Assembly (NCBI GenBank): GCA_000961655.1
Contig: LADR01000029.1
Location: 62,001-126,000 of the forward strand
DNA: 64,000 nucleotides
Direction of reading: 5' to 3'
From: Desulfatitalea sp. BRH_c12
GTDB lineage: Bacteria; Desulfobacterota; Desulfobacteria; Desulfobacterales; Desulfosarcinaceae
This document shows positions 3,789-14,008 of the stretch, piece by piece; the stretch's first letter is position 1; each line of letters starts with the position of its first letter. Both the position numbers and the translations under genes were made by a program. The notes below the pieces were generated by a model. The model worked only from the letters and a program-made list of their open reading frames with translations. It was not told where the DNA came from and made no database searches.

Positions 3789-4238
3789 ATGACTTCCAAG
3801 AAGCACCGAATGATCGTATACGGCGTGGCACTGCAACTTCTCCTCGTAGCCATCGTTTGTTATGCCGCCTTTCCTGTTAAGCCACCCGAGGAACCGCTCA
3901 GGCTGATGTATCAAACCAATGCCGGCAAAGTCCTTTTTGATCATCAGATGCATGCGACAACCAAAGGCTATGCGCTCGCATGCGCGGACTGTCACCACCC
4001 GCACTATGACGCTGAACTCGAGCCCATGTCCTGCAGCATGTGCCATCCGCCTCGGCCCGAAGGCATCAAAACCCCTGAATCCTGCCTGGATTGCCATGAT
4101 GATATCTCCGAAATCGAAAACACGGAAATCATGAAGCGTTCGGATGCGTTTCATTCGCAGTGTATCGGGTGTCATGACCAATACGGCCAAGGCCCCCCAT
4201 CCGGTCCCGAGGGATGCGGCCAGTGCCATGTACTGTAG
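3789..4238 (+). CDS. Pentahaem class III-type cytochrome c of the Rnf operon
   Basis: A membrane-anchored periplasmic multihaem cytochrome of 149 residues. Residues ~8-28 form an uncleaved or cleavable hydrophobic segment; five CxxCH haem sites follow (CADCH, CSMCH, CLDCH, CIGCH, CGQCH) with extra histidines (FDHQMH, ADCHH, DAFH) suited to bis-His ligation as in the cytochrome c3/c7 group. The ATG at 3789 is chosen over an in-frame upstream codon at 3726 because it directly precedes the positively charged signal MTSKKHR and has AGTAAGGGA upstream. It lies 69 bases ahead of rnfC, in the same position as the multihaem cytochromes linked to Rnf in Methanosarcina (MmcA) and Desulfovibrio, so it probably exchanges electrons between Rnf and the periplasm or quinone pool (inferred). 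Confidence 0.85.
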   Translation: MTSKKHRMIVYGVALQLLLVAIVCYAAFPVKPPEEPLRLMYQTNAGKVLFDHQMHATTKGYALACADCHHPHYDAELEPMSCSMCHPPRPEGIKTPESCLDCHDDISEIENTEIMKRSDAFHSQCIGCHDQYGQGPPSGPEGCGQCHVL

Positions 4239-4307: not shown

Positions 4308-5591
4308 ATGATAAAACCCTTCTTTGGTTATGCCAAACCCAAATTTCACTATGAGTTGTTGAGCACAGCGCTCCCGCAGCCGCTGACAATCACCGTGCCG
4401 CCCAAGGTGACGCTGCTGCTGCCCAGGGAGATGGGGCCCGAGCCCTCTGCCGCGCTGAAACCGGGAACACGCGTTCGCACCGGCCAGCGACTGACATGGG
4501 ATGATGCGCCCGGACCGTCGATCGTGTCCAGCGTAACGGGCACCATTCAGGCGATTGCGCCGCAGCTCGGCGATTACGGCCGTAAGTTTACCGCCATCAC
4601 CATTGCGGTGGATGCCCGTGACGAGTGGGACGATGCCTTCGGCGAGGCCTGCGCGAAAATCGATCTGCAAACCTTGCGCGACTATCTGACCGGCGTGCCG
4701 GGGGCCCCTGCCCTGGCAAACCTGGCCGACCCCAGACATCCGATCCACACCATCGTCATTTACGGCGGCGACACCGACCTGCTGGTGGACACGAACCTTT
4801 ATGTGCTCAAAACACAAACCGTCATGGTCGAAAAAGGCATCCATGCCTTAAAAGAGATCAGCGGTGTGGAAAAAGTCATACTGGCCGTGCCGGGCGAAAG
4901 TTTCCAGAATTTCGATGGTCACCTGGAGGCCGATGTTCGGGCTGTTTCCAACCGGTACCCATATGGCCAACCGCTGATGCTTTTCTATCAGCTGTTTGGA
5001 CGTATTCTGGACCAAGGCCAGACCTTTCAGAGCCAGGGGGTCGCCTTCATGCGCGCCGAAGCCGTCGCGTCCATCGGCCGGGCGCTTTCCGACAAGCGTG
5101 TTCCGAATGAAAAGCTGCTGACCGTTTTGGACAAACAGGGCCGCAAACATTTGGTCTTGGCCCGGATCGGCACACCCGTCGGTACCATACTCAAGGCACT
5201 GAATATCACCTTGAACGATCGTGACCGGCTGGTTTTCGGCGGTCCCATGACGGGCACAGCCATCTATTCGGAAGAGCAGCCGATTCAATCGGACAGCGAC
5301 GCCATTCTGGTCCAGGATGCCGCTGACATCACTCTTTCAAGCGATTACCCCTGCATCAACTGCGGTGAGTGCGTTCGCGTCTGTCCATCGAATATTGCGG
5401 TCAACATGCTGATCCGATATCTCGAAAACGGGCAGTATCAAGACGGCGCGGATCTGTACGATCTTTATTCGTGTGTCGAATGCGGGCTATGCGGTTATGT
5501 CTGTTCTTCACGCACGCCGATTCTGCAATATATCAAATTGGCCAAGTTCGAACTCGCACGCACCACGCCTGTGGAGGAAGAGAATGAATAG
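4308..5591 (+). CDS. rnfC: RnfC, divergent electron-transfer subunit
   Basis: Peripheral iron-sulfur subunit of the Rnf ion-pumping oxidoreductase, 427 residues and without the long C-terminal extension of enterobacterial RsxC. The C-terminal half is typical: SLBB-like segment, then two 4Fe-4S sites, C349/C352/C355/C359 (CINCGECVRVCPSN) and C389/C392/C395/C399 (CVECGLCGYVC). The N-terminal half departs from the family: where canonical RnfC reads NGAECEPYITADDR in the 51-kDa nucleotide/flavin domain, this one reads YGGDTDLLVDTNLY, and the YPxGGxKQL motif is RYPYGQPLMLF. NADH binding is therefore doubtful (inference from remembered family motifs). It overlaps rnfD by 8 bases. Confidence 0.9.
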   Translation: MIKPFFGYAKPKFHYELLSTALPQPLTITVPPKVTLLLPREMGPEPSAALKPGTRVRTGQRLTWDDAPGPSIVSSVTGTIQAIAPQLGDYGRKFTAITIAVDARDEWDDAFGEACAKIDLQTLRDYLTGVPGAPALANLADPRHPIHTIVIYGGDTDLLVDTNLYVLKTQTVMVEKGIHALKEISGVEKVILAVPGESFQNFDGHLEADVRAVSNRYPYGQPLMLFYQLFGRILDQGQTFQSQGVAFMRAEAVASIGRALSDKRVPNEKLLTVLDKQGRKHLVLARIGTPVGTILKALNITLNDRDRLVFGGPMTGTAIYSEEQPIQSDSDAILVQDAADITLSSDYPCINCGECVRVCPSNIAVNMLIRYLENGQYQDGADLYDLYSCVECGLCGYVCSSRTPILQYIKLAKFELARTTPVEEENE

Positions 5592-6543
5592 CCCGAACAA
5601 GCTTATTGTTTCCCATGCGCCTTTCTGGCACATCGGCAGCGGCGTTCCGGAACGCAACTACAACATCCTTGTGGCCGCCTTGCCTGCCGTGCTGATGGGT
5701 GTGGTTTTCTTCGGCATTCCCGCCATCGGGGTGATTTGCATGGCTGTTTCCTCGGCCATCGTCTGGGAGATGCTCTCCAACCTGATCGCCAAACGGACCG
5801 ATACGGTGGCCGATGGTCATGCCGCCCTGATCGGTCTGATCTTCGGCATGCTGCTGCCTGCGACCGCGCCCTGGTGGCTGGTGATCACCGGCACTTTCAT
5901 GGCTATCGTGATCGGCAAACAGATATTCGGCGGCATCGGTGCCAATCCGTTCAACCCGGCGGTGCTCTCGTTTGCCATTTTATCGATCGCCTGGCGCAAC
6001 TATTTCGACTTCGATGCGCAGCTGGTAAACTTCAACCTCGAATATCCCGCCTTTTACCCATTGGTCGCTGCCAAAGCGTTCGGTACTGCGGCCGTCGACA
6101 GCATTCCCCTGATGGACTTGTTTATCGGCAAAGAAGTCGGAGGGCTCGGGTCGACCAGCGGCGTGGCGCTGATGATCGGCGGCATCTATCTGATCGCCCG
6201 GGGTTTCGTGCGCTGGGAAATCCCGGTGGCGTTCATCGCCGGGCTGCTGATCACGGCCGGCCTGTTTCACCTGGCGGACCCTGGCAAATATGCCGGCGCG
6301 CTGTTTCATCTGCTCACCGGCTACTCCCTGATCGCCGCGTTTTTTCTGGCCACAGAAGACAGTTCATCTCCTGTCAATACTGTCCCGATGTTGATCTACG
6401 GTGCGGTGGGCGGTGTGATGACCATGTTGATTCGCAATATCGGTGCCTATCCGGAAGGGGTTATCTACGCTGTTCTGTTGATTAACCTGATGAATCCGCT
6501 GATTGACAAGATCCGGCCTAAGGCAATTGGAAAGGTGGCATGA
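5584..6543 (+). CDS. rnfD: RnfD, membrane subunit
   Basis: Integral membrane subunit of Rnf, 319 residues with about nine hydrophobic helices, homologous to NqrB. The start is the ATG at 5584, overlapping the end of rnfC; GGAGG/AAGAGA lies just before it. Family-typical stretches include ERNYNILVAALPAVLMG at the N-terminus and GGIGANPFNPAVLSF in the middle. Most RnfD proteins carry covalent FMN on a threonine in an (S/T)xATPL motif; the equivalent place here appears to be D172-S-I-P-L176, with isoleucine in place of threonine, so covalent flavin may be absent. The next gene begins one base after the stop, which implies translational coupling. Confidence 0.92.
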   Translation: MNSPNKLIVSHAPFWHIGSGVPERNYNILVAALPAVLMGVVFFGIPAIGVICMAVSSAIVWEMLSNLIAKRTDTVADGHAALIGLIFGMLLPATAPWWLVITGTFMAIVIGKQIFGGIGANPFNPAVLSFAILSIAWRNYFDFDAQLVNFNLEYPAFYPLVAAKAFGTAAVDSIPLMDLFIGKEVGGLGSTSGVALMIGGIYLIARGFVRWEIPVAFIAGLLITAGLFHLADPGKYAGALFHLLTGYSLIAAFFLATEDSSSPVNTVPMLIYGAVGGVMTMLIRNIGAYPEGVIYAVLLINLMNPLIDKIRPKAIGKVA

Positions 6544-6544
6544 T

Positions 6545-7135
6545 ATGGAAATGATCAAAATGGTGGTGGTGCTCACCATCTTGAGTGTTATCTCAGGCGG
6601 CGGTCTCAAGTGGCTGGAAGAGTTTACCAAGCCGATGATCGAGGTCCAGGAACTGGAGCTGGTCAAAGGCCCGGCTATTCGCGAGATTCTGAAGGGAGCG
6701 TCCAACGATCCGGTCGAGTCGCGCTTCAAAATTCAGGATGGCGACGAAGAACGCACGGTGTTCGTGGGGGCCTTCGACGGCGAACCGCGGGTAGCCGTAC
6801 TGGAAGTCTCGGGCAAAGGATTTGCCGATAAATTCGGATTGCTGGTGGCTTTTGACGTCGTGGAGGATAAATTGGCCGGCATCAGCGTCACAACCCACAA
6901 AGAGACGCCCGGGTTAGGCGGCGAAGCCAAGGACAACCCGGCCTGGGCCGCGCAATTCAAGGGCAAGCCCGTCAACAAACAATGCAAGGTAACCAACGAC
7001 GGCGGCGATATAAACGCCCTCAGCGGTGCGACAATCACGTCGCGCGCCGTGTGCGACGCCACCAATCAAGCCTTGGCCAAATACGAAGAGTTCAAACCGC
7101 AACTGGTCGAAAACATGAAGAGCGCAGTTAAGTAA
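6545..7135 (+). CDS. rnfG: RnfG, periplasmic covalent-FMN subunit
   Basis: Single-span membrane protein of 196 residues with a periplasmic FMN-binding domain. An N-terminal hydrophobic helix (MIKMVVVLTILSVISGGG) anchors it. The flavinylation motif SGATIT is intact at residues ~160-165, with Thr165 as the expected FMN attachment site, and the family pattern ETPGLGGEA lies upstream. The ATG at 6545, one base after the rnfD stop and preceded by AAAGGTGG, is the best start; longer readings run into rnfD. Maturation would require an ApbE flavin transferase, which is not encoded in this window. Confidence 0.92.
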   Translation: MEMIKMVVVLTILSVISGGGLKWLEEFTKPMIEVQELELVKGPAIREILKGASNDPVESRFKIQDGDEERTVFVGAFDGEPRVAVLEVSGKGFADKFGLLVAFDVVEDKLAGISVTTHKETPGLGGEAKDNPAWAAQFKGKPVNKQCKVTNDGGDINALSGATITSRAVCDATNQALAKYEEFKPQLVENMKSAVK

Positions 7136-7150
7136 TAGGAGCTAAACGAC

Positions 7151-7774
7151 ATGGCGAAATCTCTGGCACAGGAGTTCACCAAAGGGCTTTGGAAGGAAAT
7201 CCCGCCGTTTCGGCTGGTGCTCGGACTCTGTCCTGTTTTGGGTGTTACCACCTCGATGAAAAACGGCATCGGCATGGGTCTGGCCACGGCCTTTGTGCTG
7301 ATTTGCTCCAACATTCTCGTTTCATTGCTGCGCAAGGTTGTCCCATCCAAGGTCCGCATCGCCTGCTTCATCATTATTATCGCCACATTCGTCATCGTGG
7401 TCGAAATGATGATGCAAGCCTTTGTGTATGGCCTCTTTCTCGATTTGGGCGTGTTCATCCCCCTGATCGTGGTGAATTGTATAGTTCTGGGCCGCGCCGA
7501 AGCTTTTGCCTCTAAAAACAGCGTCATTCCTTCAATGGCGGATGGGATGGGCATTGGACTCGGGTTCACCTTCTCTCTGGCCGCTCTGGGTGCTGTGCGC
7601 GAATTGCTGGGAACGGGCGGGCTCGCAGGCGATATTTTCGGTTTCCTGCCGTATGAGCTGCCGAATCTTTTCGGCGCCTCTTTCGAACCATTCGCTTTTG
7701 CGGTGCAGGCTCCCGGCGCGTTTATCTGCCTGGGCCTGATGTTGTTTCTCTTGAACCTGGTCCCGAGCAAGTAG
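7151..7774 (+). CDS. rnfE: RnfE, membrane subunit
   Basis: Six-helix integral membrane subunit (207 residues), paralogous to RnfA and to NqrD. RnfA and RnfE sit as an inverted pair in the membrane and hold a shared 2Fe-2S centre through cysteines near the membrane mid-plane. Conserved text includes NPPFRLVLGLCPVLGVTTS-like residues here as IPPFRLVLGLCPVLGVTTS and the second cysteine-bearing half PLIVVNCIVLGRAEAF. TAGGAGC precedes the ATG by eight bases. It is 15 bases downstream of rnfG and 15 upstream of rnfA. Confidence 0.94.
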   Translation: MAKSLAQEFTKGLWKEIPPFRLVLGLCPVLGVTTSMKNGIGMGLATAFVLICSNILVSLLRKVVPSKVRIACFIIIIATFVIVVEMMMQAFVYGLFLDLGVFIPLIVVNCIVLGRAEAFASKNSVIPSMADGMGIGLGFTFSLAALGAVRELLGTGGLAGDIFGFLPYELPNLFGASFEPFAFAVQAPGAFICLGLMLFLLNLVPSK

Positions 7775-7789
7775 CCATAGGAGATCACC

Positions 7790-8362
7790 ATGGAGTATTT
7801 CGAGATCATTGTCGCCGGCATTTTCGTCAACAACATCCTTTTGGCTCAGTTCCTGGGAAACTGCCCATTTTTGGGCACTTCCAAAAAAATGGAAACCGCC
7901 ATCGGCATGGCAATGGCGGTCATTTTCGTTTTGGTCATGGCCGGCGTCATCACGTGGCTCATCTATTACTGGCTGCTGATGCCGTTTAAATTGACCTTCC
8001 TGCGCACGATCTCTTTCATCCTGGTGATCGCGTCGCTGGTGCAATTTGTTGAAATGTTTTTAAAGAAAAGTATTCCGGCGCTGTACGCCGGTCTGGGAAT
8101 TTTTCTACCGTTGATTACCACCAACTGTGCGGTTTTCGGCGCGTGCGTGCTCAATATTGACAAGGAACTGACGTTTATGCCGGCACTGCTTACTTCATTT
8201 GCATATGCGGCCGGTTTTGGGCTGGCGCTGATCCTGTTTGCCGGCGTTCGCGAACGCATCTTGCTGGCGCGGGTGCCCAAACCCTTGCAGGATACATCCA
8301 TTGCCCTGGTCACGGCCGGTATCATTTCCTTGAGTTTTTACGCATTTCGAGGCATGGTATAA
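7790..8362 (+). CDS. rnfA: RnfA, membrane subunit
   Basis: Integral membrane subunit of 190 residues with six hydrophobic helices. The family signatures are NNILLAQFLGNCPFLGTSK near the N-terminus and PLITTNCAVFGACVLN in the second half; each contributes a cysteine to the 2Fe-2S centre shared with RnfE. A good ribosome site (TAGGAGA) precedes the ATG. The operon continues to rnfB, but across a 162-base gap that contains a hairpin. Confidence 0.94.
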   Translation: MEYFEIIVAGIFVNNILLAQFLGNCPFLGTSKKMETAIGMAMAVIFVLVMAGVITWLIYYWLLMPFKLTFLRTISFILVIASLVQFVEMFLKKSIPALYAGLGIFLPLITTNCAVFGACVLNIDKELTFMPALLTSFAYAAGFGLALILFAGVRERILLARVPKPLQDTSIALVTAGIISLSFYAFRGMV

Positions 8363-8524: not shown

Positions 8525-10606
8525 GTGCTTGTAGCCGTTATCGTCATGTTAGGCATTGGAGCGACTTGCGGAATCGTTCTCAGCGTCGCATCCAAGCTGT
8601 TTTATGTATGGGAAGACCCACGCATCGCCCAGGTGGAGTACTATACCGCAGGCGCCAATTGCGGGGGCTGCGGATTCGCCGGCTGTTCGGCCGCGGCCGC
8701 ATCCATTGTCGCTGGCAAAGCCGCTCCGAGTGTCTGCATTGTGGCCGGTCCGGAAGCGGCCGCACAGATTGCCGGCATCATGGGTGTGGATGCCGGTACC
8801 GCCGAACCGTTGCGCTCCATGAACGTGTGTTCTGGCGGCAATCGCGCAGCTGACAAATATTACTACGATGGCGCTCAAACCTGCGCCGCCCTGGCCAACC
8901 TGCATGGTGGGCGCAGGGTCTGCTCGATCGGCTGCCTGGGCATGGGCGATTGCATCCGCTCATGTAAGTTTGACGCTATCCATATGGGCCCTGAGGGCTA
9001 TCCGGTGGTCGACGAGGCCAAATGTGTCGGCTGCGGCGCCTGCGAAAAGGCCTGCCCCAAGAATATTCTGACTGTGCGCACGATGAGCCAGCGGCTGCTG
9101 CACTTCAATGAACTGGACGACGCCCTGGCGCCATGCCAGCAAACCTGCCCGGCCGAAATCAATATCCCCCAGTATATCGATCAGATCCGCAAGGGCGATT
9201 ACGCCGGCGCGATCCATACGATCCGCGAACGCAATCCGCTGCTGCTCAGTTGCGGGCGCGTCTGCCCGCATCCGTGCGAAAATTATTGCCGCCGCGGCAT
9301 CGAGGACGAACCGGTATCCATCAACCAGCTCAAACGATTCGTGGCCGATTGGGAGATGAATTCAGGCCAGCGGCTGCCTATTCCCTGCGCCCCTGAAACA
9401 GGTAAAAAAGTCGCAGTGATCGGCGGCGGTCCGGCCGGTGTCAGTTGCGCTTATTTTTTACGGCGCCTGGGGCATTCGGTGACCATTTACGAGGCCATGC
9501 CCAAATTGGGCGGCATCACGCGTTACGGCATTCCCGAATACCGCCTGCCCGACAAGGTTCTGGATTGGGAAATCCAGGGCATTCTTGACTTGGGCATCGC
9601 AGCCCACACTGAAACGATTATGGGACGCGATTTTACCATTCAGTCCCTGCGCGATGAGGGCTATGATGCTGTTTTCCTCGGCATCGGCGCCTGGAAGGAT
9701 TATGCCATCGGCATTCCCGGCGAAGACATGCAAGGGTGCTGGAAAGGCATCGAATTTCTTTCCAAAGTGGCCGGCGCACCCGACAAGAAAATTCCCATCG
9801 GCAAAAGAGCGGCGGTGGTCGGCGGTGGCAACTCAGCCATCGATTGCGTGCGCACCCTGCTGCGGTTGGGCGCCGAAGAGGCCTACATCGTTTACCGGCG
9901 GACACGCAAAGAGATGCCGGCCAACGAGGTCGAAATTGTGGCAGCCGAGCATGAAGGGGTCAAGTTCCAGTTCCTGGCCGCACCCAAGCGCGTGGTGGCT
10001 GACGAGAACGGCCGCGTCGCCGGACTCGAATACCTGCGCATGGAGTTGGGCGAACCCGACGCCAGCGGTCGGCGCAGGCCGATTCCCGTGGAAGGATCGG
10101 AAACGATTCTGCCAGTGGATATGCTCATTTCCGCCATCGGGCAACAGCCTGAGCTTGACTTTCTGGAAAAAGAAACCGCAGCGGAAAAGCCCAAGATCAC
10201 CCGCTGGAACACCTTTGACAACGATCCGGAACTGCTGCAGACAAGCTTGCCGTATGTCTTTACCGCCGGCGATGCCGCTACCGGACCATCGCTGGTGGTG
10301 GATGCCATCGGCGGCGGTCGGCGGGCGGCGCGATCCATTCACCAATTCCTGACCGGCGAAAAGGTTCAGAGCTCGCCCAAGTCGTTGCGCAAAAAACACA
10401 TCGCCGAGTCGCTGTTCAAAACGGTACCGGGTGTGCAGAAGAAAAACCGCACCCCCATGCCCGAATTGCACGTCGAAGAGCGCATCACCAGCATGGTTGA
10501 AGTCGACCAGGTCATCAGCGAAAAAGATGCGGCCTACGAATCTCAGCGCTGCTTGAATTGCTGCCGGATCTGTTACAATCCAGAGGAAAATTCGAAAGTC
10601 GCCTAA
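8525..10606 (+). CDS. rnfB: RnfB fused to a GltD/NfnB-type FAD-NAD(P) oxidoreductase
   Basis: Fusion protein of 693 residues. Residues 1-20 form the usual RnfB membrane helix; C46, C49, C54 and C71 make the first 4Fe-4S site; two ferredoxin sites follow (C133/C137/C143/C147 and C167/C170/C173/C177). From about 200 to the end it is a complete glutamate-synthase small-subunit-like module: N-terminal cysteine domain (CQQTCP, CGRVCPHPCENYC), FAD fold VAVIGGGPAGVSCAYF (~296-311), NAD(P) fold AAVVGGGNSAIDCVRTLL (~430) followed by YRRT, where the arginines suggest NADPH, and the FAD-closing TAGDAATGPSLVVDAIGGG. A final CLNCCRIC may be another cluster. GTG start with AAGGAGG before it. The module could let ferredoxin-side electrons meet NAD(P)H inside Rnf (inferred). 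Confidence 0.93.
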   Translation: MLVAVIVMLGIGATCGIVLSVASKLFYVWEDPRIAQVEYYTAGANCGGCGFAGCSAAAASIVAGKAAPSVCIVAGPEAAAQIAGIMGVDAGTAEPLRSMNVCSGGNRAADKYYYDGAQTCAALANLHGGRRVCSIGCLGMGDCIRSCKFDAIHMGPEGYPVVDEAKCVGCGACEKACPKNILTVRTMSQRLLHFNELDDALAPCQQTCPAEINIPQYIDQIRKGDYAGAIHTIRERNPLLLSCGRVCPHPCENYCRRGIEDEPVSINQLKRFVADWEMNSGQRLPIPCAPETGKKVAVIGGGPAGVSCAYFLRRLGHSVTIYEAMPKLGGITRYGIPEYRLPDKVLDWEIQGILDLGIAAHTETIMGRDFTIQSLRDEGYDAVFLGIGAWKDYAIGIPGEDMQGCWKGIEFLSKVAGAPDKKIPIGKRAAVVGGGNSAIDCVRTLLRLGAEEAYIVYRRTRKEMPANEVEIVAAEHEGVKFQFLAAPKRVVADENGRVAGLEYLRMELGEPDASGRRRPIPVEGSETILPVDMLISAIGQQPELDFLEKETAAEKPKITRWNTFDNDPELLQTSLPYVFTAGDAATGPSLVVDAIGGGRRAARSIHQFLTGEKVQSSPKSLRKKHIAESLFKTVPGVQKKNRTPMPELHVEERITSMVEVDQVISEKDAAYESQRCLNCCRICYNPEENSKVA

Positions 10607-10626: not shown

Positions 10627-10662
10627 CCCCCTCCGGCCTGGCTGCCGTGAGGGGTTTTTTTT
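10627..10662 (+). terminator. Intrinsic terminator of the rnf operon
   Basis: Stem CCCCTCCGGC / GCCG-T-GAGGGG with a six-base loop and a run of eight T residues, 20 bases after the rnfB stop. Confidence 0.85.
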
Positions 10663-10978: not shown

Positions 10979-12055
10979 ATGCAAGGCAAATCACGCGTGC
11001 TTGTTCGTTCGTTAGTTTTGCTGGCATCTTTTGTCGCCCTGACTTTCAATGCGCCCCTGGCGGATGCTGCGGATAAAGTCATCAAGTGGAAAATGCAAAC
11101 CCATTGGCCCCCTTCGAGTTCATCCTACAAGGATAGCGCCCAGGTGCTGGTCGAAAAACTCAAGGAGCGTACCGGCGGACGTTTGAACATCGAGCTGTTT
11201 TCGGCCGATGCGCTTGTCCCTTCCAAAGAGCTCTTCAACGCTGCCAAGCGTGGCATGATCGAGATCGTCGGCACCTCATCCGCTTACCCCCGCGATCAGG
11301 TGCCTTTGATGGATGTTGCCTCCGGTCTGCCGATGAATTTCAAAGATACCTGGGAATGCGCCTATTTTCATAAGGAAATGGGCTTTGACGATATGGTCGG
11401 CAAAGCATTCGCCAAGCATGGGCTTTACTACACGCCCGACAAGGTCTACCCCACCGAACTGTCTCTCAAGAAGCCGGTACGCAAATTCGAAGATTTCAAA
11501 GGATTGAAGTTGCGTTCATCGGGCATCCTGCAGGTCTATCTCACCGCGATCGGCGCAGCGGGTTCCCCACTGCCCGGCAGTGAAATCTATGCCGCCCTGA
11601 CCTCGGGTGTCGTCGAAGGTGCGCACTGGGGCGCGGTTCAAGGCAGTGACAGCATGGGCTTTTACGAGGTCAACAAATATCACTTGCGTCCGGCCCTCAA
11701 TGTGGCGTCCACCGACATCTGGCTGATCAATCAAAAGGCATTGAACGCCCTGCCTCAGGACATCCAGAAAATATTGAAGGACACTCTGGACGAACATTTC
11801 TGGCTGCGAACGGATGAATACCAACACCTCGAAGAGGTTACCCTGGCCAAGGTACAGAAAGAAAAAGGGGTCGAACTCATCCAATTGGCCAAGGAAGACA
11901 TCAAGAAGATGAGTGATGCGGCCCAACCCATCTGGGAGGATGTCGCCAAAAGAAGCCCCGACAATGCCGCCGCGGTTGAATTGCTGCGGAAGTTCCATGC
12001 AACGGACAAATCCGAGGCGGTCCAAAAACTCAAAGAAGCGCATGCAACCAAATAA
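10979..12055 (+). CDS. dctP: TRAP transporter substrate-binding protein (DctP type)
   Basis: Periplasmic solute receptor of 358 residues that captures an organic acid and hands it to the DctQM permease. A Sec signal peptide (residues 1-30, cleaving near PLADAADK) precedes a DctP fold: KWKMQTHWPP strand, ELFSADALVP, and the conserved arginine in GLKLRSSG that usually grips the substrate carboxylate. AGGAGG lies seven bases before the ATG. The ligand cannot be read from sequence; the neighbouring 2-hydroxyacid dehydrogenase makes lactate, glycolate or a related acid conceivable. A hairpin follows the gene. Confidence 0.93.
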   Translation: MQGKSRVLVRSLVLLASFVALTFNAPLADAADKVIKWKMQTHWPPSSSSYKDSAQVLVEKLKERTGGRLNIELFSADALVPSKELFNAAKRGMIEIVGTSSAYPRDQVPLMDVASGLPMNFKDTWECAYFHKEMGFDDMVGKAFAKHGLYYTPDKVYPTELSLKKPVRKFEDFKGLKLRSSGILQVYLTAIGAAGSPLPGSEIYAALTSGVVEGAHWGAVQGSDSMGFYEVNKYHLRPALNVASTDIWLINQKALNALPQDIQKILKDTLDEHFWLRTDEYQHLEEVTLAKVQKEKGVELIQLAKEDIKKMSDAAQPIWEDVAKRSPDNAAAVELLRKFHATDKSEAVQKLKEAHATK

Positions 12056-12093
12056 TATCTGAGTCTCGGCGGCACACGCTTTTAAAAAACCAG

Positions 12094-12131
12094 GAGCATC
12101 CGGTCCGGGTACGATTTGTGGCCGGATGCTC
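12094..12131 (+). promoter_or_regulatory. Strong hairpin between dctP and dctQ
   Basis: Perfect ten-base stem GAGCATCCGG (12094-12103) / CCGGATGCTC (12122-12131) followed by TTTG. Such structures after receptor genes usually stabilise the upstream mRNA and reduce read-through, giving more binding protein than permease. Confidence 0.7.
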
Positions 12132-12152
12132 TTTGTCCGATGGAGGCAATGG

Positions 12153-12695
12153 GTGCAAACAGTGAATGCGGTATTGCGTTTTATCGATCAACTGAATGAA
12201 TGGGTCGGCCGCGTATTGGCGCTTTCGATCCTGCTCATGTTCGTCCTGGTGGTGACCGAGGTGGTCCGGCGCTACTTTTTCAACTCCCCGACGGTCTGGG
12301 GTAACGAACTGGTTCAACTTCTTTTCGGGGCGTATGTCATCTTGTCCGGCGGACATATTCTGAAACACAACGGCCATGTCAACGTGGATATTTTCTATGC
12401 GCGTTTTTCAGCCAGAACCAAAGCCGTTCTGGATATTTTCACTTTTCTGCTTTTTTTCCTGTTTTGCGGGATGCTTCTCCTGTACGGCGGCCAATTGGCA
12501 TGGGAATCCTTGTCTACTTGGGAACATTCCCAATCCGCCTGGAACCCGCCGGTCTATCCGTTTAAACTGATGATCCCGCTGGGCGCCTTGCTGTTGCTTC
12601 TGCAAGGCACCGCCAAGCTCATTCGCGATATTATCATCTTAGTGACCGGCCAGGAATTAGAGGGAACGGGACCTGCGGAGAAGGAAGCCTTATGA
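12153..12695 (+). CDS. dctQ: TRAP transporter small permease subunit (DctQ type)
   Basis: Four-helix membrane protein, about 180 residues, that pairs with DctM. Helices lie near residues 20-45, 55-75, 95-115 and 135-155; typical pattern is TEVVRRYFFNSPTVWGNE, where WxxE is conserved in DctQ. The GTG at 12153 is preferred because TGGAGG lies five bases upstream; the ATG at 12126 falls inside the hairpin and has no ribosome site. The stop overlaps the dctM start (ATGA). Confidence 0.9.
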   Translation: MQTVNAVLRFIDQLNEWVGRVLALSILLMFVLVVTEVVRRYFFNSPTVWGNELVQLLFGAYVILSGGHILKHNGHVNVDIFYARFSARTKAVLDIFTFLLFFLFCGMLLLYGGQLAWESLSTWEHSQSAWNPPVYPFKLMIPLGALLLLLQGTAKLIRDIIILVTGQELEGTGPAEKEAL

Positions 12696-14008
12696 GCATC
12701 GAGCTACTGACCTTTTTGTTCTTTCTGTCCTTATTCTTTTTTCTTTTCTCGGGGCTGCCGCTTACATTTGTCCTCGGCGGGGTTTCCATCATCTTTCTAT
12801 ACTTTACCTGGGGACCGGACGCCCTTTACATGGTGGCGGCCCAAACCTGGGGAACGATGGAAAAATTCACATTGGTGGCGATTCCCCTGTTCATTTTCAT
12901 GGCCATGGTGCTGGAAAGATCCGGCACAGCCAACGATCTGTACGAAATGATGTATGTGTGGTTCGGGCGGGTGCGCGGCGGCCTGGTCATCGGGACCTTG
13001 GTAATTTGCGCTATTTTTTCGGCCATGTGCGGCATCAGCGGGGCGGCCGTGGTCAGCATGGGATCGATCGCCCTGCCCTCGATGCTCGCGCGTGGGTATG
13101 ACAAACGCATGGCCGTGGGCTGCATCAATTCCGGCGGCGGCTGGGGCATCCTGATCCCGCCCAGCGTCATCATGATTCTTTATGCGCTGATCTCCGGCGA
13201 ATCCGTGGGCAAACTGTTCGCGGGCGGCATCTTGCCGGGTCTGCTGCTGCTGACGATCGTCTCCATCTATGTTTTGGTGCGCTGCTATTTCCAGCCGCAC
13301 CTGGGACCGGCCTTGCCGAGCGACCAGCGCGGCGATTGGGGCCGGAAATTCAAAGCGCTGAAGGCGATCATCCTGCCGGTCAGCATCGTATTCGCCGTTC
13401 TAGGCTCGATCGTTTACGGGCTGACCACGCCTACCGAGGCTGCGGGGGTGGGCGTGCTGGGGTCGCTGATTTCGGCGGCTGTCTACAAGAAGCTGAACTG
13501 GAATCTTCTCTGGGAATCCAGCATACGCACCTTCCGCCTGACCGGCATGGTCATGTGGATTCTTTTCGGGGCCTATTGCTTCACGGCGGCCTATCACAGC
13601 ATGGGTGGCACGCATTTAATCGAAAAAGTCATGACCTACGTGCCCGGCGGGCCCTGGGGCACCATCATTTTCATTCAGTTGCTGCTGCTGGTGTTGGGTA
13701 TGGTTCTCGATCCGGCCGGCATCATGATGATCACCGTGCCGGTCTTTTTACCTGTGATCAAGGCGCAAGGCTTCGATCCTCTGTGGTTCGGCATCCTTTT
13801 CATCATGAACATGAATATCGCCTACATGACGCCGCCGTTCGGGTTCAATCTGTTCTACCTGAAGGCGATCTGCCCGCCATCGGTGACCATGGCCGACATC
13901 TATCGGTCGGTCGTTCCTTTCATGCTGCTGGAATGCACAGGGATGCTGTTGGTCATGTTTTTCCCGGAAATAGCGACATGGCTGCCGAATAAATTTTTTG
14001 GGGGATAA
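12692..14008 (+). CDS. dctM: TRAP transporter large permease subunit (DctM type)
   Basis: Twelve-helix sodium-coupled transport subunit, 438 residues, the catalytic channel of the TRAP system. Family marks are the N-terminal PLTFVLGGVSIIFLY, the re-entrant region FSAMCGISGAAVVSMGSIALP, the NSGGGWGILIPPSVIMILY hairpin, the TTPTEAAGVGVLGSL loop and the C-terminal MTPPFGFNLFYLK. It begins in a 4-base overlap with dctQ and ends the operon; a strong terminator lies 250 bases on. Confidence 0.95.
   Translation: MSIELLTFLFFLSLFFFLFSGLPLTFVLGGVSIIFLYFTWGPDALYMVAAQTWGTMEKFTLVAIPLFIFMAMVLERSGTANDLYEMMYVWFGRVRGGLVIGTLVICAIFSAMCGISGAAVVSMGSIALPSMLARGYDKRMAVGCINSGGGWGILIPPSVIMILYALISGESVGKLFAGGILPGLLLLTIVSIYVLVRCYFQPHLGPALPSDQRGDWGRKFKALKAIILPVSIVFAVLGSIVYGLTTPTEAAGVGVLGSLISAAVYKKLNWNLLWESSIRTFRLTGMVMWILFGAYCFTAAYHSMGGTHLIEKVMTYVPGGPWGTIIFIQLLLLVLGMVLDPAGIMMITVPVFLPVIKAQGFDPLWFGILFIMNMNIAYMTPPFGFNLFYLKAICPPSVTMADIYRSVVPFMLLECTGMLLVMFFPEIATWLPNKFFGG

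Follow-up and report, generated by a model that had tools for sequence, protein, structure and literature searches.

A Desulfatitalea Rnf complex with a GltD-type nucleotide module fused to RnfB and an RnfC that has lost its FMN and NADH loops

The window analysed here is a stretch of 64,000 nucleotides from Desulfatitalea sp. BRH_c12 (contig LADR01000029.1, positions 62,001 to 126,000, forward strand), which carries an rnf operon with all genes on one strand in the order cytochrome-rnfCDGEAB. The complex belongs to a type that has been named Rnf2 and is described as core to Desulfobacteraceae and abundantly formed (PMC11887813). The last gene of the operon encodes its sole RnfB, wherein the ferredoxin domains are joined in one open reading frame (ORF) to a GltD-type module with folds for flavin adenine dinucleotide (FAD) and NAD(P). 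An earlier note on this DNA had described such a protein, comprising an RnfB with its membrane helix and a complete FAD/NAD(P) module, and Pfam and PDB matches bear this out. The ORF opens with a GTG at 8525, preceded by aaggagg, and closes with a TAA ending at 10606. The domain search that the earlier note proposed for the 693-residue product gave FeS (residues 43-72), Fer4 (160-182), Fer4_20 (202-280) and Pyr_redox_2 (294-597), in that order and all over cut-off. The parts of the gene are as follows.

8525..10606, + strand: rnfB-GltD fusion gene, 693 residues (Pfam and PDB sequence matches)
8528..8599, + strand: RnfB membrane helix, residues 2-25 (helix 2-25 in the AlphaFold2 model; hydrophobic stretch in the sequence)
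8651..8740, + strand: RnfB FdI, an FeS domain, residues 43-72 with C46, C49, C54 and C71 (PF04060)
8930..9070, + strand: RnfB FdII, a two-cluster ferredoxin domain, residues 136-182 (PF00037 and PF12838)
9128..9364, + strand: Fer4_20 cluster domain of the GltD-type module, residues 202-280 (PF14691)
9332..9334, + strand: K270, equivalent of StnC K170, which is Glu in NfnB (counted by hand in the PDB alignment)
9404..10315, + strand: FAD and NAD(P) Rossmann folds, residues 294-597 (PF07992; Foldseek to NfnABC, StnC and NfnB)
9821..9925, + strand: NADP(H)-type motif, GGGN to YRRTRKEMPAN, residues 433-467 (conservation in fused rows)
10550..10573, + strand: C-terminal CxxCCxxC, residues 676-683, possibly extra cluster ligands

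In PDB sequence searches, residues 2-191 match RnfB of the solved Rnf complex of Clostridium tetanomorphum (7zc6_B, 1.5e-49), residues ~179-682 match chains of NfnABC and StnC, and residues ~201-613 match NfnB and GltD chains. Each of the four FdI cysteines is present in 98% of 49 fused rows, the window protein being one of them. In a further alignment (A1) of 48 rows, consisting of the window protein and 47 of the 60 other fused proteins, the FdII cysteines C133, C137, C143, C147, C167, C170, C173 and C177 are invariant, as are C204, C208, C247, C251 and C255 of the Fer4_20 domain and C676, C679 and C683 of the C-terminal motif; these rows include the paralogues L019 and L143-L145 and the short forms L135 and L136, which are discussed below. 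The same genome also encodes a canonical RnfB (L020, 303 residues), which continues past its second ferredoxin domain into more cysteines that we take as the FdIII described for C. tetanomorphum (PMC9588780). Judged by this comparison, the GltD-type module is placed where FdIII would be, rather than after a complete RnfB. The fusion described in the earlier note stands, with the small correction that the module takes the place of the third ferredoxin part.

To place the fusion among relatives, loci were taken from a survey of 291 genomes of the class to which the window genome belongs, picked for spread over families from the listed matches (60 Rnf2-type and 20 canonical-type loci), and the counts below are not frequencies. 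An RnfC match at E <= 1e-10, counting both types, is present in 264 of the 291 genomes, and a canonical-RnfC match at E <= 1e-60 in 95. A fused RnfB is present in 48 of the 60 Rnf2-type loci, with a short RnfB in 2 (L099, L101) and none recognised in the fetched stretch in 10; among these ten, L075 and L097 stop at a contig end, and L082 has an upstream GltD-type piece of 550 residues that is maybe a cut fusion. The fused proteins are 686-714 residues long, except for one cut at the stretch end (L083), and in L081, L083 and L095 the fusion sits upstream of the cytochrome. A cytochrome gene lies next to rnfC in all 60 loci, with 3 to 8 CxxCH motifs each. The survey of relatives that the earlier note had called for finds the fusion in many loci, and this recurrence in separate genomes argues that it is no artefact. 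A frameshift, a chimera or the assembly join near 9120 that the note had raised is accordingly rejected, and we regard an origin of this kind as next to impossible: the frame is continuous, and published proteomics detected every Rnf2 subunit but RnfA2, five of the six, in the membrane fraction whichever condition was tested (PMC5109826). Phylum-wide, the window RnfB has a match at E <= 1e-150 in 46 of 395 genomes, some of these being partial and to other GltD-type proteins.

The remaining genes of the operon are listed here, among them that of an altered RnfC, a change which the earlier note does not mention.

3789..4238, + strand: c-type cytochrome with five CxxCH and an N-terminal hydrophobic stretch, start presumed (PF02085, class III type)
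4308..5591, + strand: rnfC without the loops for flavin mononucleotide (FMN) and NADH, with two [4Fe-4S] motifs (motif search, alignment, AlphaFold2 model)
5584..6543, + strand: rnfD, start presumed at ATG 5584 (PF03116 and TIGR01946 over cut-off)
6545..7135, + strand: rnfG with SGAT flavin site, start presumed (NF045876 and TIGR01947 over cut-off)
7151..7774, + strand: rnfE with both conserved Cys motifs, LCP 26 and NCI 109 (TIGR01948 over cut-off)
7790..8362, + strand: rnfA with both conserved Cys motifs, NCP 24 and NCA 112 (TIGR01943 over cut-off)

The rnfCDGEAB set is complete in the window, and the RnfG flavin motif and the Cys pairs of RnfA and RnfE are intact. The window RnfC aligns to solved RnfC over its length, with the glycine-rich loop (GIVGLGGAAFPT in L020) and the CECEP and YPQGSEKQ stretches gone. 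The same loss is seen throughout the type. Comparing 61 Rnf2-type RnfC sequences (the 60 fetched loci and the window) with the 22 other RnfC of the class sample, GGAxFP is found in 0/61 against 19/22, YPxG[AS]x[KR] in 0/61 against 16/22, [ACSG]xCEP in 2/61 against 19/22, and G[LM]GG in 1/61 against 18/22. Across 133 columns conserved in 15 canonical RnfC, the canonical residue occurs in <10% of the Rnf2-type sequences at 73 columns and in >90% at 31. All eight cluster cysteines are kept in every one of the 61 and in 41 of 41 rows of a wider alignment (A4). The Complex1_51K profile gives the window RnfC 22 bits, under its cut-off of 31.2. An AlphaFold2 model of this protein has a mean predicted local distance difference test score (pLDDT) of 90, and its query-normalised template modelling (TM) scores are best against RnfC chains (0.75-0.79), compared to 0.64-0.67 against NqrA chains of whole Nqr structures. 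As the model still folds as RnfC, the cofactor residues would have gone and not the fold: RnfC is predicted to retain its fold and relay cysteines, having lost the residues for FMN and NADH, and we infer that it carries no FMN. For the Rnf of Desulfobacula toluolica Tol2, the RnfC domains were published as lacking (PMC5109826); our model predicts instead that the folds are still present and the loops lost. The earlier suggestion that the fusion could by-pass the usual NADH site was too weak, since RnfC no longer has the residues that make up this site.

In the comparison loci, a fused RnfB was not seen beside an RnfC with an intact loop. The 20 canonical-type loci comprise 15 with all three RnfC motifs (L112-L126), 2 with two (L127, L131) and 3 with none (L128-L130); 19 have a short RnfB and one is cut before any RnfB (L113), and among all 20 we see no fused RnfB and no match to the window cytochrome. 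Nor is there a fused RnfB beside the GGAxFP-containing RnfC of L138-L142; a separate GltD-type gene lies within the stretch in L138 and L139. Among 80 named loci listed from many phyla, with no record titled Desulfovibrio in this set, GGAxFP is found in 75, of which 61 have a short RnfB and 14 none in reach, and a fused RnfB accompanies it in 0/75. The five without GGAxFP are L183 (Desulfocarbo indianensis), which has a fused RnfB, and L160 (Candidatus Desulfofervidaceae), L193, L201 and L230, which have short ones; the last three keep one or two other RnfC motifs and are counted as pattern misses, not as decayed sites. The converse does not hold. Seven operons combine a decayed RnfC with a short RnfB (L128-L130, L132-L134 and L137), and neither end of these complexes has a nucleotide site that could be recognised. 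Of the seven, only L132 and L133 have a cytochrome gene with three or more CxxCH in the fetched stretch, and an ORF of L130 has two. The strict rule that a decayed RnfC means a fused RnfB was rejected on account of these seven, which fall outside the fused group, and of the short-RnfB loci L099 and L101 within it.

The order of events was approached with a tree of RnfD alone (94 rows, 71 with decayed and 23 with intact RnfC), for which the bootstrap was unsettled (0.978). All decayed rows fall on one side of a branch supported at 100/98, and within them 64 rows are grouped at 96/89, of which 53 have fused RnfB, 9 have no RnfB seen and 2 have a short one. The seven other short-RnfB decayed rows fall outside this group, and the branch making L134/L137 outermost is weak (79/25). 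The least number of changes is one for the RnfC trait and two for the RnfB trait, the latter count leaving out the 9 decayed rows and one other row without RnfB. With the root among the intact rows, a placement that is unsure because it comes from one long NqrB-type outgroup row in a quick tree, the fusion nests within the decayed-RnfC group, and the nucleotide site was therefore probably lost from RnfC before RnfB gained one. On the same rooting, the RnfB module came after the RnfC loss and was later replaced once by a short RnfB. As both traits are near to single events, their coincidence is no statistical proof of a functional link.

We then consider what kind of module was acquired. In Foldseek, the top ranks go to NfnABC of Caldicellulosiruptor and Thermococcus and to StnC, followed by NfnB and then by GltD and DPD. 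The label 'GltD/NfnB-like' given in the earlier note is right as to the GltD-type family, but the module is closer to StnC and NfnABC than to either protein named, in both the PDB search and Foldseek. By hand count in the PDB alignment, K270 aligns with K170 and R340 with R239 of Sporomusa StnC, and both residues are the same in all 48 aligned rows. K170 of StnC seems to be a ligand of the FAD-proximal cluster, a role that Glu has in NfnB; in published StnC variants of this residue, activity is lost with Ala and partly kept with Arg, and the FAD of StnC is described as a non-bifurcating flavin (PMC10482914). Homologues of the same genome used as controls have at this position Glu (the NfnB-like L012), Lys (L010, L014) or His (L013); L008, L009, L011, L015, L017 and L143 were not counted, having no usable alignment with one strand read. 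The earlier note had proposed that the module could bifurcate. Electrons would then be split or joined (confurcation) at an FAD shared by NADP(H), ferredoxin and the pump chain, combining bifurcation with ion pumping. The homology to NfnB speaks for this (5jca_L, 5.4e-102; Foldseek TMt 0.80), as does the conservation of R340, since the corresponding R201 is the Arg at the NfnB FAD, although StnC keeps this Arg too. However, Lys replaces the Glu cluster ligand in 48/48 rows, as in StnC, and no NfnA-like match was found among the eight proteins scanned at 3.7-12 kb around the fusion, the rest of the genome not having been searched for NfnA. Bifurcation had been our leading reading and was lowered after the Lys-for-Glu result; we now hold it to be improbable, and the sequence instead favours a feed wherein electrons from NADPH would pass one by one into RnfB. 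The same eight proteins include no StnAB/HydBC-like partner pair.

As regards the nucleotide, the YRR stretch that the earlier note had read as a sign of NADPH is present as GGGN...YRR...EMPA at residues 433-466, and Y457, R458, R459, E463, M464, P465, A466 and N467 are found in at least 97% of the 49 fused rows. YRR is lost in the same-genome homologues L013 (C, L, E) and L014, and is degenerate in the paralogues L019 and L145. By likeness to known motifs, we infer that the nucleotide is NADP(H) rather than NAD(H). The other choice would make the complex an NADH-fed pump of Nqr-like polarity, with the nucleotide on the side of RnfA and RnfE, and the published description of the Tol2-type Rnf does speak of NAD+-binding sites (PMC5109826); moreover, the NADH subunit NqrF of Nqr sits, like RnfB, near the A/E-type subunits (PMC9588780). 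We nevertheless consider this unlikely, as the YRR...EMPA stretch that is shared with StnC and NfnB is kept in the fused rows and lost in L013. A further feature of the module concerns its clusters. The window protein is without the N-terminal CxxC of the NfnB-like L012 (CLQCKKPGC), and the C-terminal CxxCCxxC may supply the ligands of this missing motif, a suggestion based on what we take to be the cluster ligands of the Fer4_20-type fold in DPD.

The reading that we favour, and consider reasonably probable, is that in the Rnf2-type complex the pyridine-nucleotide site has moved from RnfC, the output, to RnfB, the input, as a non-bifurcating NADPH feed of the StnC kind. It builds on what was computed directly, namely the fusion with its intact module motifs, the loss of the RnfC loops beside eight kept cysteines, the one-group pattern of the tree and the Lys for Glu. 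Of the earlier note's reading, the nucleotide-type site on the RnfB side, the NADP(H)-type motif and a changed complex are supported, and bifurcation is not. In the canonical route, as described for C. tetanomorphum, electrons run from ferredoxin through RnfB, RnfA/E, RnfG, RnfD and RnfC to NAD+ (PMC9588780). In the window complex, NADPH would reduce the FAD of the GltD-type module by hydride transfer. From there electrons would leave singly via the module clusters, enter the RnfB ferredoxin domains and continue through RnfA/E, RnfG and RnfD until they reach the pair of [4Fe-4S] clusters in RnfC. No longer binding FMN or NADH, RnfC would pass them to a partner protein, and on the outer side the multihaem cytochrome encoded in the operon may accept or donate electrons. 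If the core keeps the coupling of its relatives Rnf and Nqr, so that flow from RnfB to RnfC pumps outward, pumping fed by NADPH would need an acceptor above NADPH, either at RnfC or at the cytochrome. In the reverse direction, ion inflow would lift periplasmic electrons to NADP+ or ferredoxin at RnfB, and we prefer neither direction over the other. For Desulfovibrio, where Rnf likewise comes with a cytochrome, it has been suggested that the pool of periplasmic cytochromes and NAD(P)H or ferredoxin exchange electrons (PMC4287179).

Several observations weigh against this proposal. The choice of nucleotide is read from motif likeness only, and the paralogous fusions with a degenerate motif do not share that likeness. 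The stretch of L094 has an RnfC that is positive for the FMN loop beside a separate Rnf2 operon with the fusion. The loci with decayed RnfC and short RnfB, whether outside or inside the fused group, suggest that such a pump may do without a recognised nucleotide site. Finally, some fused RnfBs lie apart from other rnf genes (L146, L147, L151, L019 and L145), so that the module may be independent of the pump. A further explanation is that the GltD part has a function separate from pumping, either regulatory or as an NADPH:ferredoxin reductase anchored in the membrane, with the fusion being a tether. In its favour are the fused proteins of L019 and L145, which have NuoE/NuoF-like neighbours, that of L146, whose neighbours look like DsrM/DsrK, and soluble-looking forms that align only from residue 76-99 onward (L135, L136). 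We nonetheless think it very doubtful, as in the window the fusion is the only RnfB of an operon with five other rnf genes and has conserved FdI and helix residues.

These stray fusions are described here in their own right. The second RnfB-GltD fusion of the window genome (676 residues; contig C28, L019 7829-13276, minus strand) lies behind NuoE-/NuoF-like genes and before an RseC-like gene, as does that of L145 (3180-8779, plus strand), and no rnfCDGEA genes were recognised beside either one. In L143 and L144, a fusion closer to the L019-type paralogue serves as the RnfB of an Rnf2 operon. Fused RnfBs with no rnf genes recognised alongside are also found in L146 (9883-15753) and L147 (980-6755). 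The neighbours in L146 are an RsbRD-like gene, a nitrate-reductase-gamma-like (DsrM-like) gene and a Fer4 (DsrK-like) gene of 540 residues; neighbour families were scanned for L146, and L147 is likened to it by the same gene sizes. The forms in L135 (6864-8657) and L136 (6970-8751) have 595-599 residues with the FdII and GltD parts, and are without the membrane helix and FdI. Genome G394, the source of L135, has an rnf operon (L134) in which a decayed RnfC goes with a short RnfB, and L134 is identical over RnfC to the Candidatus Desulfofervidaceae record L160. In G422 (L136) and G472, the matching stretches contain TAA codons in frame.

The anatomy of this Rnf type is already in print, and the type is therefore known. 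The Tol2 complex of D. toluolica has an RnfB of ~700 residues with NAD+ sites and an RnfC without NADH and ligand-binding domains, Desulfococcus multivorans has the same second cluster with a small cytochrome, and the mode of action was said to await testing (PMC5109826). The window complex shares the ~700-residue RnfB with nucleotide folds, the RnfC without NADH site and the cytochrome in the cluster, and we found no anatomical difference; as in the window genome, some genomes of this type (D. multivorans, D. autotrophicum) have a second, canonical Rnf. What we add are the predicted presence of the RnfC fold, the apparent StnC kind of the RnfB module and its NADP(H)-type motif. The excerpts searched, from one library of open-licence literature, gave no earlier mention of the Lys shared with StnC, of an assignment to NADP(H) or of the order in which the two changes came.

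Compared to canonical Rnf (Acetobacterium, Clostridium, Azotobacter), the window complex shares the six subunits, the RnfB helix, FdI and FdII, the RnfG flavin motif, the RnfA/E cysteines and the RnfC cluster domain, but has a nucleotide module on RnfB instead of FdIII, an RnfC without FMN and NADH loops, and an upstream cytochrome gene. With StnC of StnABC and with NfnABC, the module has in common the Fer4_20, FAD and NADP(H) folds, the Lys at the K170 position and 37-42% identity in Foldseek alignments; it differs in having no NuoG-like part and no StnAB-like pair in the operon, and in being fused to a membrane RnfB. NfnB (NfnL) of NfnAB has the same fold and NADP(H)-type motif, whereas in the window the Glu ligand is not kept, the N-terminal CxxC is absent, a C-terminal CxxCCxxC is added and the proteins scanned gave no NfnA match. 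The layout also resembles that of Na+-NQR, because nucleotide entry in Nqr is on the side corresponding to RnfB (PMC9588780) and NqrA is likewise without FMN and NADH site (PMC4014512, PMC9588780). However, the Rnf2 RnfC keeps its clusters, and by Pfam the input module is not NqrF-like. A more far-reaching and tentative proposal, to which we give rather less weight than to the relocated site itself, is an Rnf2 of reversed logic, which would first have lost its NADH end, so that it was ferredoxin-fed and delivered to a cytochrome or an RnfC partner, and would then have gained a non-bifurcating NADPH feed at the ferredoxin end, making NADPH instead of NADH its nucleotide, with a new partner at RnfC. 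If true, it would be an evolutionary parallel to Na+-NQR. The substrates of Rnf2 bear on energy conservation in a large group of marine sulfate reducers, and the evidence of an NADH end that is gone, a new site that looks NADP-type and non-bifurcating, and RnfC clusters kept for a partner poses in each case a bench question.

Past the fusion stop, an inverted repeat (CCCCTC/GAGGGG) followed by eight T's was found by eye at ~10628-10662, in keeping with rnfB being the last gene. TRAP transporter genes follow at 10979-14008, wherein the binding protein (starting at 10979) was identified by Pfam and two membrane genes by position and look. The genome of 5,997,605 bases has two more RnfA/E-like pairs beside that of the window operon: contig C83 carries a canonical rnf operon with an FMN-loop-positive RnfC and a short RnfB, and on contig C34 an RnfA/E-like pair adjoins an RnfD/NqrB-like gene.

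A side find concerns RnfE in one genus of the phylum (g140). In three of its four species (L152/G379, L153/G344, L154/G307), the rnfE codon for the cysteine of PLIVVNC is an in-frame TGA (PLIVVN-TGA-xxLGRAEAF), whereas L155/G407, the fourth, reads TGT. Before and after the TGA the reading frame stays open, and a selB match over cut-off is present in all four genomes. The PLIVVNC cysteine is one of the conserved cysteines of RnfE, and we take it to bind metal between RnfA and RnfE. A single iron has been described between these two subunits (PMC9588780). In the two cases tested, a hairpin after the TGA was not stronger than in shuffled sequences (z -0.75 and -0.99, with -1.08 for the Cys-codon control L156), so that the hairpin is no evidence for selenocysteine; no tRNA-Sec was found in the three short loci scanned, no genome-wide search having been made. 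A selenocysteine in the RnfC of this genus was considered and dropped, as RnfC of both L132 and L133 has a full-length frame of 431 residues whose TGA is most likely an ordinary stop; the in-frame TGA of these loci lies in RnfE. RnfE of this genus is a candidate for a selenocysteine in the core of an ion pump, and its TGA may be more novel than the Rnf2 fusion.

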